DNA of 6,578 bases, from contig JABFVJ010000057.1 of the NCBI GenBank assembly GCA_013362835.1, forward strand, positions 1 to 6,578, in the 5' to 3' direction. How positions within the stretch are numbered: the first letter of the stretch is position 1; the number at the start of each line of letters is the position of its first letter. The stretch comes from Nonomuraea sp. (GTDB lineage Bacteria; Actinomycetota; Actinomycetes; Streptosporangiales; Streptosporangiaceae). Of this stretch, positions 2,195 to 4,394 are shown one piece after another. The notes under the pieces are model-generated. The model was not told the DNA's origin, ran no database searches, and saw only the letters and a list, made by a program, of their open reading frames with translations. The translations under genes and the position numbers were made by a program.

Positions 2195-2651
2195 CCGACT
2201 CGACCAGCCGCGGGCGCTGCGCCGTTCGCTGCGCCCCCACTACGACCCGGAGGCGTTCGGCCGCCTGTCCGAGCGCATCGCCCGCTTCCTGGGCACGGCC
2301 CGGTTCATCGTCTACATGACCGTGTTCGTGGCGGTCTGGGTGATCTGGAACATCGCCGCGCCCCCGGCGCTCAAGTGGGACCCTTACCCGTTCATCTTCC
2401 TCACGCTGATGCTGTCGCTGCAGGCCAGCTACGCCGCGCCGCTCATCCTCCTCGCCCAGAACCGCCAGGACGACCGCGACCGCATCCAGTACGAGCAGGA
2501 CCGCGAGTCCGCCGACCGCAACCAGGCCGAGATCGAATACCTCACCCGCGAGATCGCCGGGCTGCGCCTGGCCCTGAGCGAGGTCGCCACCCGCGACTAC
2601 CTGCGCGCCGAGCTCGGCCGGCTGCTGGAGGAGCTCAACAAGCGTCAGTGA
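2184..2651 (+). CDS. DUF1003 family membrane protein
   Basis: The product is 155 residues from GTG 2184. This start is chosen because GAGGGGG (2171-2177) sits 6 nt upstream and because longer starts add non-family sequence. The start lies inside the end of the MgtE-N/CBS gene (11-bp overlap), indicating co-transcription and probably translational coupling. There are two membrane helices, at about 41-59 (FIVYMTVFVAVWVIWNIAA) and 68-91. The family hallmark is present: W-x-x-W-N, then WDPYPFIFLTLMLSLQASYA, ending with AQNRQDDRDR (91-100). Residues 93-153 are charged and heptad-like, probably a cytosolic coiled coil. The biochemical function of DUF1003 is not established. Its tight coupling to a pore-less MgtE sensor suggests a joint membrane complex, which is inference. 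The 3' end overlaps the convergent marR gene by 17 bp. Confidence 0.93.
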   Translation: MTTDRLDQPRALRRSLRPHYDPEAFGRLSERIARFLGTARFIVYMTVFVAVWVIWNIAAPPALKWDPYPFIFLTLMLSLQASYAAPLILLAQNRQDDRDRIQYEQDRESADRNQAEIEYLTREIAGLRLALSEVATRDYLRAELGRLLEELNKRQ

Positions 2652-3096
2652 CGTCGAGCCTGGCGAGCAGCGCCCGCACCTCGCCGACGTCACCCGCGCC
2701 GAGCAGGTCGAGAAACTGGCTCTTGACCCCGCGCAGGTAGGTGGGCGTGGCCTCGGCCAGCCGCTCGGCGCCCGGCTCGGTGAGCACCGCGAACAACCCG
2801 CGCGCGTCGTCGGAGCACGCCTCCCGCCCGACCAGCCCGTGGCGCTGCAGCCGGTCGATCAGCCTGGTCAGCCCGCTGCGGGAGAGCAGCACGCGCTCGG
2901 CCAGGTCGTTCATGCGCAGCCGCCGCCCCGGCGCCTCGGCCAGCCGCGCGAGCACCTCGTACGAGGCCAGCGGCAGCCCGTGGGCGACCAGCAGCTCGGT
3001 CTCCAGGCGGCGCGCGATGCGCACCTGGGCACGCTGCAGCATGCGCCAGACCGCCAGCTCTTCGGCGGTGAGCCCCTCGTCGCGCAGCAGAGTCAC
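2635..3096 (-). CDS. MarR-family transcriptional regulator
   Basis: The product is 153 residues from GTG 3096, the usual length for a dimeric MarR winged-helix regulator. Helices at about 11-38 and 117-150 form the dimer interface. The winged helix-turn-helix spans about 44-110, with L-x-x-R-x-L-R-M-N-D-L-A-E-R (57-68), recognition helix SRSGLTRLIDRLQRHGLV (72-89) and wing REACSDDARGLFAVLTEPG (91-109). Cys94 lies in the wing region and Cys153 is the last residue; redox sensing is possible but unsupported. No Shine-Dalgarno precedes the GTG, while a TAAGGT box ends 6 nt upstream, suggesting a leaderless transcript. Its promoter contains a 26-bp dyad, so autorepression is likely, and the same site could influence mrp, which diverges from it. 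The ligand and regulon cannot be told. The 3' end overlaps the DUF1003 gene tail-to-tail. Confidence 0.92.
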   Translation of the reverse strand: MTLLRDEGLTAEELAVWRMLQRAQVRIARRLETELLVAHGLPLASYEVLARLAEAPGRRLRMNDLAERVLLSRSGLTRLIDRLQRHGLVGREACSDDARGLFAVLTEPGAERLAEATPTYLRGVKSQFLDLLGAGDVGEVRALLARLDVTDAC

Positions 3097-3102
3097 GCAG
3101 TA

Positions 3103-3131
3103 ACCTTAGACGTTGTTGCACACACATCTAA
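3103..3131 (-). promoter_or_regulatory. Candidate marR promoter (TTAGAT - 17 nt - TAAGGT)
   Basis: On the minus strand, TTAGAT (3126-3131) and TAAGGT (3103-3108) are 17 nt apart, and the -10 box ends 6 nt before the GTG at 3096. That spacing fits a leaderless actinobacterial promoter with TANNNT at -10. The -35 is a poor match to TTGACA, so the call rests mainly on the -10 and its position. Confidence 0.45.
3106..3131. promoter_or_regulatory. 26-bp dyad, candidate MarR operator
   Basis: The outer arms TTAGA (3106-3110) and TCTAA (3127-3131) are perfectly inverted, and across the full 26 bp 9 of 13 position pairs are complementary, centred on the G/C at 3118-3119. MarR dimers typically bind such partly palindromic sites. 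The dyad covers the space from the marR -35 to within the -10, so a bound dimer would block RNA polymerase. It lies about 125 bp upstream of the mrp start codon. Binding by this MarR protein is inference. Confidence 0.5.
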
Positions 3132-3141
3132 CAAGCGCGGA

Positions 3142-3172
3142 TTAACTCAGCGACCCCCCGGGTTCATACCAT
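3142..3172 (+). promoter_or_regulatory. mrp: Weak candidate promoter for mrp
   Basis: TACCAT (3167-3172) fits TANNNT, and TTAACT (3142-3147) stands 19 nt upstream, which is longer than ideal. A start near 3179 would give a leader of about 75 nt carrying the hairpins described below. It would exclude the small ORF at 3171, whose ATG overlaps this -10. An alternative start site further upstream, near the marR operator, is possible. Confidence 0.25.
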
Positions 3173-3221
3173 GGAGGGGCATTCTCACTGGCATCAGCGC
3201 CTGTCACCCATAGACGACTAA
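3171..3221 (+). CDS. Possible 16-codon leader ORF upstream of mrp
   Basis: ATG 3171 opens a 16-residue frame, MEGHSHWHQRLSPIDD, ending at TAA 3219-3221. The last A of the stop is the first base of AGGAGGG, the putative mrp ribosome-binding site, an arrangement suited to translational coupling. The peptide has three His and one Trp in residues 4-8. Against it: no Shine-Dalgarno precedes the ATG, the ORF is short enough to arise by chance, and a candidate -10 box overlaps its start. It is listed as a possibility only. Confidence 0.18.
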   Translation: MEGHSHWHQRLSPIDD

Positions 3222-3254
3222 GGAGGGACGGCACTCCCTCGTGCCGAGACTTCG
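3221..3254 (+). promoter_or_regulatory. mrp: mrp leader: distant Shine-Dalgarno with two competing hairpins
   Basis: A strong ribosome-binding site, AGGAGGG (3221-3227), stands 27 nt before the mrp ATG, too far for normal initiation. Four adjoining 6-nt blocks follow in the order A-B-A'-B'. They are GAGGGA (3223-3228), CGGCAC (3229-3234), TCCCTC (3235-3240) and GTGCCG (3241-3246). A pairs perfectly with A', which would bury the ribosome-binding site. B pairs perfectly with B', which loops out 18 nt and leaves 9 nt between AGGAGGG and the ATG. The two helices cannot form together because there are no linking bases. B-B' has five G-C pairs against four in A-A'. The pairings are seen; a regulatory role is inferred. 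Confidence 0.5.
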
Positions 3255-4394
3255 ATGGCACCAACCCAGGAACAGGTGACGGCCGCCCTCGCCACCGTCA
3301 TCGACCCCGAGATCCGTCGCCCGATCACGGACCTCGACATGGTCAAGAACATCGAGATCGCCCCCGACGGGGCGGTGCGCGTGGGCGTCTACCTCACCGT
3401 GTCCGGCTGCCCGATGAAGGACACCATCACCCGTGACGTGAAGACCGCGGTCGGCAAGGTCGGCGGCGTGACGGACGTCCAGATCGAGCTCGACGTCATG
3501 AGCACCGAGCAGCGCAAGGTCCTGCAGACCAAGCTGCGCGGCGACCGGGGCCCGGAGAAGGAGATCCCCTTCAACCAGCCGGGCTCGCTCACCCGCGTCT
3601 TCGCCGTCGCGAGCGGCAAGGGCGGCGTCGGCAAGTCGTCGGTCACCGTCAACCTGGCCGCCGCCATGGCCTCCAGCGGCCTGAAGGTCGGCATCGTCGA
3701 CGCCGACATCTACGGTCACAGCATTCCTCGCATGCTGGGCGCCGCCGAGCGGCCCACCAAGGTCGAGGACATGATCATGCCGCCGTCCGCGCACGACATC
3801 AAGGTCATCTCGGTCGGCATGTTCAAGCCCGAGGGCAACACGCCGGTCGTCTGGCGCGGGCCGATGCTCGACCGGGCGCTCCACCAGTTCCTGGCCGACG
3901 TCTACTGGGGCGACCTCGACGTCCTCCTCCTCGACCTGCCCCCGGGCACCGGCGACATCGCCATCTCGGTGGCGCAGCGGCTCCCGTCGGCGGAGATCCT
4001 GGTCGTGACCACGCCCCAGCAGGCCGCCGCCGAGGTGGCCGAGCGGGCCGGTTCGATCGCCGCCCAGACCCACCAGCAGATCGCCGGCGTCATCGAGAAC
4101 ATGTCCTGGCTGCCCTGCCCCCACTGCGACGAGCGTGTCACCGTCTTCGGCGAGGGCGGCGGCCAGACCGTCGCCGACGCCCTGACCCGTACGCTGGGCG
4201 CCCGCGTCCCGCTGCTCGGCCAGGTGCCGATCGACCTGCGCCTGCGCGAGGGCGGCGACGAGGGCAAGCCGCTGGTGCTGACCGACCCCGACTCGCCGGC
4301 CGCCGCCGAGCTGCGGAAGATCGCCACCGGGCTGAGCCGGCGCGCCTCCAGCCTCAAGGGCATGCAGCTCGGCCTGTCGCCCAACCGTTCCTGA
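3255..4394 (+). CDS. mrp: Mrp/ApbC-type P-loop ATPase, Fe-S cluster carrier
   Basis: The product is 379 residues, a usual length for bacterial Mrp proteins carrying an N-terminal MIP18/DUF59 domain. That domain spans about 5-95, with DPEIRRPITDLDMVK (17-31) and the conserved Cys52 in SGCPMKD. The MinD-like ATPase follows: deviant Walker A GKGGVGKSS (121-129), switch VDADIYGHSIPRMLG (148-162), DLPPGTGD (227-234), and CPHC with Cys288 and Cys291, the pair that binds a bridging Fe-S cluster between two subunits in ApbC/Nbp35 proteins. It should act in the cytosol as a dimer that holds and delivers Fe-S clusters with ATP turnover. ATG 3255 is the only usable start in frame: an in-frame TAA lies at 3219-3221 and no ATG/GTG/TTG lies between. 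Translation probably depends on the structured leader before it. A strong hairpin follows the stop codon. Confidence 0.96.
   Translation: MAPTQEQVTAALATVIDPEIRRPITDLDMVKNIEIAPDGAVRVGVYLTVSGCPMKDTITRDVKTAVGKVGGVTDVQIELDVMSTEQRKVLQTKLRGDRGPEKEIPFNQPGSLTRVFAVASGKGGVGKSSVTVNLAAAMASSGLKVGIVDADIYGHSIPRMLGAAERPTKVEDMIMPPSAHDIKVISVGMFKPEGNTPVVWRGPMLDRALHQFLADVYWGDLDVLLLDLPPGTGDIAISVAQRLPSAEILVVTTPQQAAAEVAERAGSIAAQTHQQIAGVIENMSWLPCPHCDERVTVFGEGGGQTVADALTRTLGARVPLLGQVPIDLRLREGGDEGKPLVLTDPDSPAAAELRKIATGLSRRASSLKGMQLGLSPNRS

Follow-up and report, generated by a model that had tools for sequence, protein, structure and literature searches.

The mrp gene of this Nonomuraea sp. poses a simple question: how does a ribosome that binds a Shine-Dalgarno sequence (SD) 28 nt upstream reach the start codon? 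The window, by which we mean the whole 6,578-nt stretch of DNA analysed, encodes a 379-aa Fe-S carrier P-loop ATPase (mrp/apbC) with matches to Pfam PF10609 (E 5e-91) and FeS_assembly_P (PF01883), while the NCBIfam ApbC and MrpORP models match it below their cut-offs. The protein is 98% identical to the Mrp of genome G050 and 93% identical to that of Nonomuraea sp. G32. The elements around its start are as follows.

3167-3172, plus strand: TACCAT, the -10-like element of mrp, ending 82 nt before the ATG (predicted transcript start near 3179)
3179-3219, plus strand: upstream part of the putatively gained leader, poorly conserved in parsimony changes and length variation
3220-3226, plus strand: AAGGAGG, the SD of mrp, read directly, 28 nt from the ATG
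3223-3228, plus strand: GAGGGA, first of four interleaved 6-mers, read directly
3229-3234, plus strand: CGGCAC, hairpin 5' arm, pairing with GTGCCG at 3241-3246
3235-3240, plus strand: TCCCTC, hairpin loop, complement of GAGGGA at 3223-3228
3241-3246, plus strand: GTGCCG, hairpin 3' arm, closing the looped-out hairpin 3229-3246 (18 nt)
3247-3254, plus strand: AGACTTCG, the 8-nt spacer separating hairpin and ATG
3255-3257, plus strand: ATG, the start codon of mrp, read directly
3255-4394, plus strand: mrp/apbC

An initial annotation of this region had described four interleaved 6-mers (3223-3246) between a distant SD and an ATG at 3255 that it held to be the only possible start, and a direct reading of the letters confirms the motifs and their coordinates, with AAGGAGG (3220-3226) as the one strong SD there. 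Because an in-frame TAA lies at 3219-3221 and no ATG, GTG or TTG falls between it and 3255, this ATG is the first possible mrp start. The spacing figures of the annotation hold up as well: we count 28 nt from AAGGAGG and 10 nt after loop-out, or 9 nt if the SD is read as AGGAGGG. Four perfect and gapless interleaved 6-mers occur once in the window and in 0 of 100 dinucleotide shuffles of it; with gaps of up to 2 nt allowed the shuffles give 4 in 100, and for interleaved 5-mers with gaps of up to 1 nt the window holds 2 and the shuffles give 20 in 100. A 16-codon frame from ATG 3171 to TAA 3221 was considered and set aside, as its ATG sits within the -10 element and L084 does not keep the frame.

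We gathered mrp upstream regions first from 80 named loci and then from whole genomes, namely 54 of the genus of Nonomuraea sp. G32, 16 of the genus of Streptosporangium subroseum and 60 others of the family, the last drawn, mostly from the best matches downward, from 264 family genomes with an mrp match. When these 130 relatives are sorted into classes by sequence patterns, with AAGGAGG and the arms forming part of the definition of the hairpin class, 70 carry the order SD-hairpin-ATG at mrp (47/54, 16/16 and 7/60, respectively). In another 55, TANNNT stands 6-7 nt before the mrp ATG, four (L158, L161, L163 and L165) have an SD about 12-14 nt from the ATG and no hairpin, and one (L164, class 'other') has GGAG 7 nt from the ATG. 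Two covariance models, R1 built from 18 Nonomuraea sequences and R2 from 15 Streptosporangium sequences, were both trained on mrp hairpin sites, such that their informative aspects are their reach and the absence of other R1 sites. R1 gives one match in each of 47 of the 54 Nonomuraea-genus genomes, all at mrp and at no other site, while R2 matches 85 of 341 family genomes, 70 at mrp and 15 elsewhere only.

Across the 71 hairpin sequences, window included, the raw SD-ATG distance ranges from 26 to 51 nt. The looped-out length also differs, between 18 and 41 nt: of the 48 Nonomuraea sequences, 43 loop out 18 or 19 nt and five 26-27 nt, and the 23 other sequences loop out 36-41 nt. Once the hairpin is subtracted, the effective spacing comes to 10 nt for 67 of the 71, 11 nt for three and 8 nt for one. 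A decorative hairpin would not be expected to keep its summed distance to the SD and the ATG fixed. CGGCA and TGCCG are present in all 48 Nonomuraea hairpin sequences and no arm base differs among 18 distinct rows of this genus; L171-L173 have lost the outermost pair of the arms, and L099 keeps the SD-hairpin unit behind a leader that is about 25 nt shorter upstream of the SD. The longer interiors of Streptosporangium and its allies form a hairpin of their own, with z < -1 against mononucleotide shuffles in 18 of 20 distinct sequences, and 95.6% of cells are paired in these long hairpins, as compared with 19-67% for slid partners. Covariation is absent from the short-hairpin arms, which never vary, and in the long hairpins amounts to one pair changed on both sides, a score that 305 of 500 column shuffles also reach.

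The near-constant spacing bears on whether the inverted repeat acts in DNA or in RNA. As DNA, CGGCAC-N6-GTGCCG forms a dyad next to a divergent MarR-type gene and might be an operator for a regulator such as that protein; yet relatives that keep the hairpin have anywhere from 8 to 31 bp separating the five-base arms, and the constant quantity is the summed distance to SD and ATG rather than the distance to the promoter. We regard an operator as highly improbable.

We favor instead, with a probability of about 0.73, the reading that translation of mrp starts from a split ribosome-binding site whose two parts are bridged by a hairpin. The ribosome would bind AAGGAGG (3220-3226) on an mRNA beginning near 3179, the 18-nt hairpin (3229-3246) would be folded aside so that the 28-nt gap acts as one of 10 nt, and ATG 3255 would reach the P site, with the hairpin serving as a constitutive spacer rather than as a regulated switch. 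Folding in the cell and use by the ribosome are what we infer here from sequence. Parsimony on the mrp tree was counted without gaps over 30 rows of the same length, picked by a pattern that includes AAGGAGG and the arms. These pattern elements themselves show 0 changes, both in the 12 columns of CGGCAC/GTGCCG and in the 7 columns of the SD, while GAGGGA has 1 change, the spacer 3247-3254 has 4 in 8 columns, the loop TCCCTC has 6 in 6 columns, and the 12 nt before the SD have 53, a figure that small indels inflate in an ungapped count.

Natural losses of the hairpin point in the same direction as its conservation. L005 and L228, from the same genomes as L158 and L161, nest inside hairpin-bearing Nonomuraea with L111 and L245 (support 99/94), and L230, from the genome of L165, belongs to the 41-row clade that also includes them (99/93), but its position there is loosely supported (82/91). 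In all three the 5' arm and the loop are gone, TGCCG of the 3' arm is left and the SD stands about 12-14 nt from the ATG, which reads as a loss that restored near-normal spacing. L229 and L011, from the genomes of L163 and L164, are also without the hairpin and group with the leaderless L231 and L232 (100/96). Overall the mrp tree requires at least 4 label changes and is compatible with the hairpin having been gained once or twice.

These losses also weigh on a reading in which the hairpin is a passive relic and initiation proceeds through a weak element near the ATG or independently of an SD. The window does contain such an element, GAGA (3246-3249), 5 nt before the mrp ATG, but this reads GACA in 15 of 15 distinct aligned Streptosporangium sequences, which leaves no good SD near the AUG in either case. 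Substitutions occur in the loop and none in the SD or the arms, and in the lineages that lost the hairpin the SD came to lie about 12-14 nt from the ATG. A relic is thus unlikely in our judgment. If mrp is read from a split site, gene finders and translation-rate models that expect an SD near the start may misread such genes.

The initial annotation had gone further and proposed a two-state switch, in which one fold hides the SD by pairing GAGGGA with TCCCTC, the other loops out 18 nt, and a signal shifts the balance. Both pairings are indeed predicted, depending on the piece folded: 3221-3246 and 3179-3300, the segment that the annotation had proposed to fold, favor the SD-hiding helix, 3215-3257 favors the loop-out and 3211-3290 gives neither in full, while the stability of 3179-3300 as a whole is not unusual (z -1.1). 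Also in favor of a switch, the longer fold contains another hairpin, GUGCCG/UGGCAC, that would cover the start codon too. The two folds are near in energy in the window, where folding of short pieces favors the SD-hiding form by 0.8 kcal/mol, and 32 of 48 short sequences (window included) and 5 of 23 long ones are more stable in this form, with one tie (L099); yet the balance (on minus off) ranges from -7.3 to +4.1 kcal/mol among the 48 short-hairpin sequences and from -8.3 to +4.1 kcal/mol over all 71. Complementarity between SD and loop is somewhat above that of shuffles, with 4 of 500 scoring as high for the 14 distinct short sequences and 42 of 500 for the 20 distinct long ones, and the loop changes less than the indel-inflated stretch before the SD. 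However, 7 of 37 sequences of equal length lack a complete SD-hiding helix (83.3% of its cells are paired), not one compensated pair was found, and ATGGCACC occurs in leaderless relatives too, so that its pairing may be coincidental. The upstream leader varies, leader alignments reveal no conserved upstream sensor, and Rfam offers no family, with nothing at gathering level for the window, nothing at E up to 1 for 3100-3320 and, in seven related loci, two weak matches below the gathering score and none at the mrp hairpin. We consider a switch decidedly unlikely. What survives of the annotation is the distant SD with a CGGCAC/GTGCCG hairpin setting its spacing, as kept in 70 of 130 relatives. 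The comparison of relatives that it had suggested bears out the loop-out arms and the near-constant effective spacing but not the compensatory changes expected in either helix, and of the relatives with a normally spaced SD that it had named as evidence against the switch, L158, L161, L163 and L165 are cases at near-normal distance, all of them lacking the hairpin.

For the hairpin-bridged site itself, predictions place most of the SD in base pairs in both states, which is the chief argument against a ribosome site that simply lies open. With the hairpin looped out, the predicted probability that GGAGG is unpaired is 0.16 in the window, with medians of 0.18 for short and 0.19 for long hairpins. 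CTTC of the spacer 3247-3254 can pair weakly with GAGG of the SD, and RNAalifold predicts this GAGG/CUUC pairing in both Nonomuraea and Streptosporangium, as a 4-bp extension in the loop-out state. The predicted pairing may be a mild masking that the ribosome overcomes, and a minor SD-masking role is possible. A full pseudoknot of both helices was rejected by reasoning, since every loop would have length zero.

How mrp came by this arrangement is suggested by the relatives that have neither SD nor hairpin. In all 55 of the leaderless class, TANNNT, mostly as TANCAT, ends 6-7 nt before the ATG, compared with 7 of 1100 positions in a shifted control, and in none of the 71 hairpin sequences does TANNNT occupy that position. 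An element of this kind 6-7 nt before the start is a known mark of leaderless genes in Actinobacteria, according to the sections available of two sources (PMC3160421, PMC4633059). The mrp of these 55 relatives resembles such genes, whereas in the window those promoter words (GGTTCATACCATGGA, 3161-3175) are followed by a leader of about 76 nt that includes an SD, and TACCAT lies 82 nt from the ATG. The TANCAT element was recognised from the alignment of relatives; a sigma-70 consensus promoter scan gave no match. Among the 48 hairpin sequences of Nonomuraea, counting the window, 47 have it ending 82-94 nt before the ATG, with 84 nt as the value for 29 of them, and one has it at 59 nt; the mRNA of the window would start near 3179.

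A leader (76 nt in the window) thus seems to have been inserted between the old promoter and the old start codon of a once-leaderless mrp, since the window keeps its TACCAT, now 82 nt before the ATG, and since the words TACCATGGACTC, which end at the ATG in the leaderless L167, L175, L179 and L206, are still readable just before the leader in L168-L170 and L176. The scarcity of the promoter word in Streptosporangium, where it lies within 140 nt in only 1 of 16 sequences, counts against such an insertion. The split site would have been born when the leaderless gene gained this leader, and a single gene would then be seen shifting from leaderless to leadered initiation, with a transposon end at the start codon as a possible route.

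The hint of a transposon comes from R2, which also matched a repeated sequence in other genera resembling the outward end of IS200/IS605-type elements, with neighbours that match Y1_Tnp (PF01797) and OrfB_IS605/TnpB (two loci tested). These ends, from the same bacterial family, share with the Streptosporangium mrp hairpin the series AGGGACGGCA...TGCCGA...GATGG and a like inner helix, and both can adjoin start codons directly. They differ in that many have an SD such as GGGAGG between hairpin and ATG, whereas the mrp SD precedes the hairpin, and the inner helix is absent from the short hairpin of the window. Given this absence, the link between Nonomuraea and the IS ends runs via homology with Streptosporangium mrp, as seen in the alignment.

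We built a further model, R3, from ten IS ends and no mrp sequence, and searched 590 kb with it. R3 recovers the mrp site in 14 of 16 Streptosporangium loci at E 2.9e-7 to 7.5e-4 (L114 scores 0.064 and L115 is not listed) and lists 22 of 31 Nonomuraea loci at E 0.035 to 0.7, the window among them with a weak 20.5 bits (E 0.037), below the control L267. Among 24 control loci R3 reports two: L267 scores 24.3 bits (E 0.0032), with no TnpA or TnpB match found beside it, and L275 scores 17.1 bits (E 0.31). In 30 whole genomes the mrp site is found at E <=0.01 in 16 of 23 with long hairpins and 0 of 7 Nonomuraea, and is the only match in G059, G060, G063 and G071. When long mrp hairpins are compared with 14 collected IS ends, 0 of 200 pair-preserving shuffles score as high in 15 of 20 cases, or in 10 of 20 when the three most mrp-like ends are omitted, although the IS ends surfaced through their resemblance to mrp and the two search directions are not independent. 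The 16 Streptosporangium mrp loci contain no TnpA or TnpB match; a solo end would lack transposase.

We fetched 20 of the 37 non-mrp whole-genome matches, of which 13 have TnpB or TnpA homology within 1.5 kb (weak in L352) and seven have none. The mrp start reads ATGG, and 18 of the 20 fetched ends stop at ATGG or ATGA, a result that is partly built in because this end belongs to the model. From the terminal ATG, a frame of at least 150 codons runs in 11 of the 20, and a shorter one or none in nine; in an earlier set of 30 loci, a pattern requiring an ATG fitted 16, nine of which open a frame of at least 150 codons. Ten of the 11 proteins encoded by the fetched ends were tested and eight have a Pfam domain, which begins at residue 2 in a 2Fe-2S/FAD oxidoreductase, 3 in cytochrome bd subunit II, 8 in IMP dehydrogenase, 16 in an aldo/keto reductase and 20 in an epimerase, among others. 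Examples of IS ends among L314-L355 are L345, L351 and L354; the long frames include guaB-like, cydB-like and aldo/keto reductase genes, and the guaB-like L354 has no transposase match nearby.

Since IS ends often abut start codons, many carrying a GGGAGG-like outward SD just before the ATG, an IS end at the mrp start codon is plausible, and such ends are perhaps start-codon-seeking elements that resupply translation. That the mrp hairpin may be a domesticated IS end is a lead rather than a proven descent. Taken jointly, these observations allow a tentative scenario, which we rate at somewhat less than even odds, wherein IS200/IS605-type ends of Streptosporangiaceae would be mobile translation-start cassettes, with a hairpin and often an outward SD, that insert exactly at start codons. 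In an ancestor of three groups, Nonomuraea, Streptosporangium and one other, such a cassette would have landed at the start of leaderless mrp and given the gene a leader. It would have persisted as a hairpin-bridged split site, which later became shorter or longer or disappeared, with the effective spacing kept at about 10 nt. If this is true, a transposon end converted a leaderless mrp into a leadered gene.

The closest known counterparts of the proposed site are T4 genes 38 and 25, in which, according to the available part of one account, RNA structure cuts the SD-AUG spacing from 22 to 5 nt and from 27 to 11 nt, respectively, and destabilising that structure lowers translation (PMC3014915). 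The same part describes the gene 25 structure as present in close T-even phages and absent from more distant ones (PMC3014915). The likeness, as far as this part extends, lies in an over-long SD-AUG distance shortened by intervening structure, from 28 to 10 nt in the window, and the mrp sequence shares the T4-type traits of an SD more than 20 nt from the AUG, a bridging hairpin and no good close SD. In contrast to the T4 genes, mrp is a chromosomal bacterial gene, probably of leaderless ancestry, in which the predicted loop-out varies from 18 to 41 nt with a near-fixed remainder. In the split ribosome-binding site of E. coli thrS, the portion available of a second source has a long hairpin accommodated by the ribosome without unfolding, and its essential single-stranded part is a standby site as far as section 18 tells (PMC3936740). 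On that partial account the shared feature is an accommodated hairpin, whereas the mrp hairpin sits between SD and AUG. Literature searches on hairpin-spaced SDs, leaderless genes, mrp leaders and IS605 ends at start codons found no account of the mrp case, which does not prove that none exists. With variable hairpins, near-constant spacing and natural losses, the mrp device appears conserved over 70 genomes and could be used to study how ribosomes pass over structure that separates an SD from its AUG.

Other genes may share the layout. Across 320 kb of the Nonomuraea genome G052, 10 of 1377 GGAGG sites (0.73%) are candidate split sites, with no clear excess over eight decoys (0.22-0.79%). R2 also pointed to a permease gene, at which, among the 30 best of 146 matching genomes with upstream regions read by eye, four loci (G235, G232, G231 and G237) have SD-hairpin-ATG, and their hairpins differ in sequence among these four genomes of another group. 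At this gene, named by eye as a sugar ABC-transporter permease, L276, L277, L278 and L284 read SD, 2 nt, hairpin, 8 nt and ATG, and it is possibly a second split ribosome-binding site. L252 (G108) and L253 (G042) also have SD-hairpin-ATG with an effective spacing near 11 nt, one at an unnamed gene and the other at a gene that looks by eye like that of a sigma factor.

Two observations concern the neighbours of mrp in the window. The divergent MarR-type gene (2635-3096, minus strand) is itself probably leaderless, because TAAGGT ends 6 nt before its GTG (window 3094-3108, minus strand). Further upstream, the frame 989-2191 encodes a protein with PRC-barrel, MgtE_N and CBS domains and without the MgtE transport domain, and it overlaps the DUF1003 gene at 2184-2648 if the latter starts at 2184.
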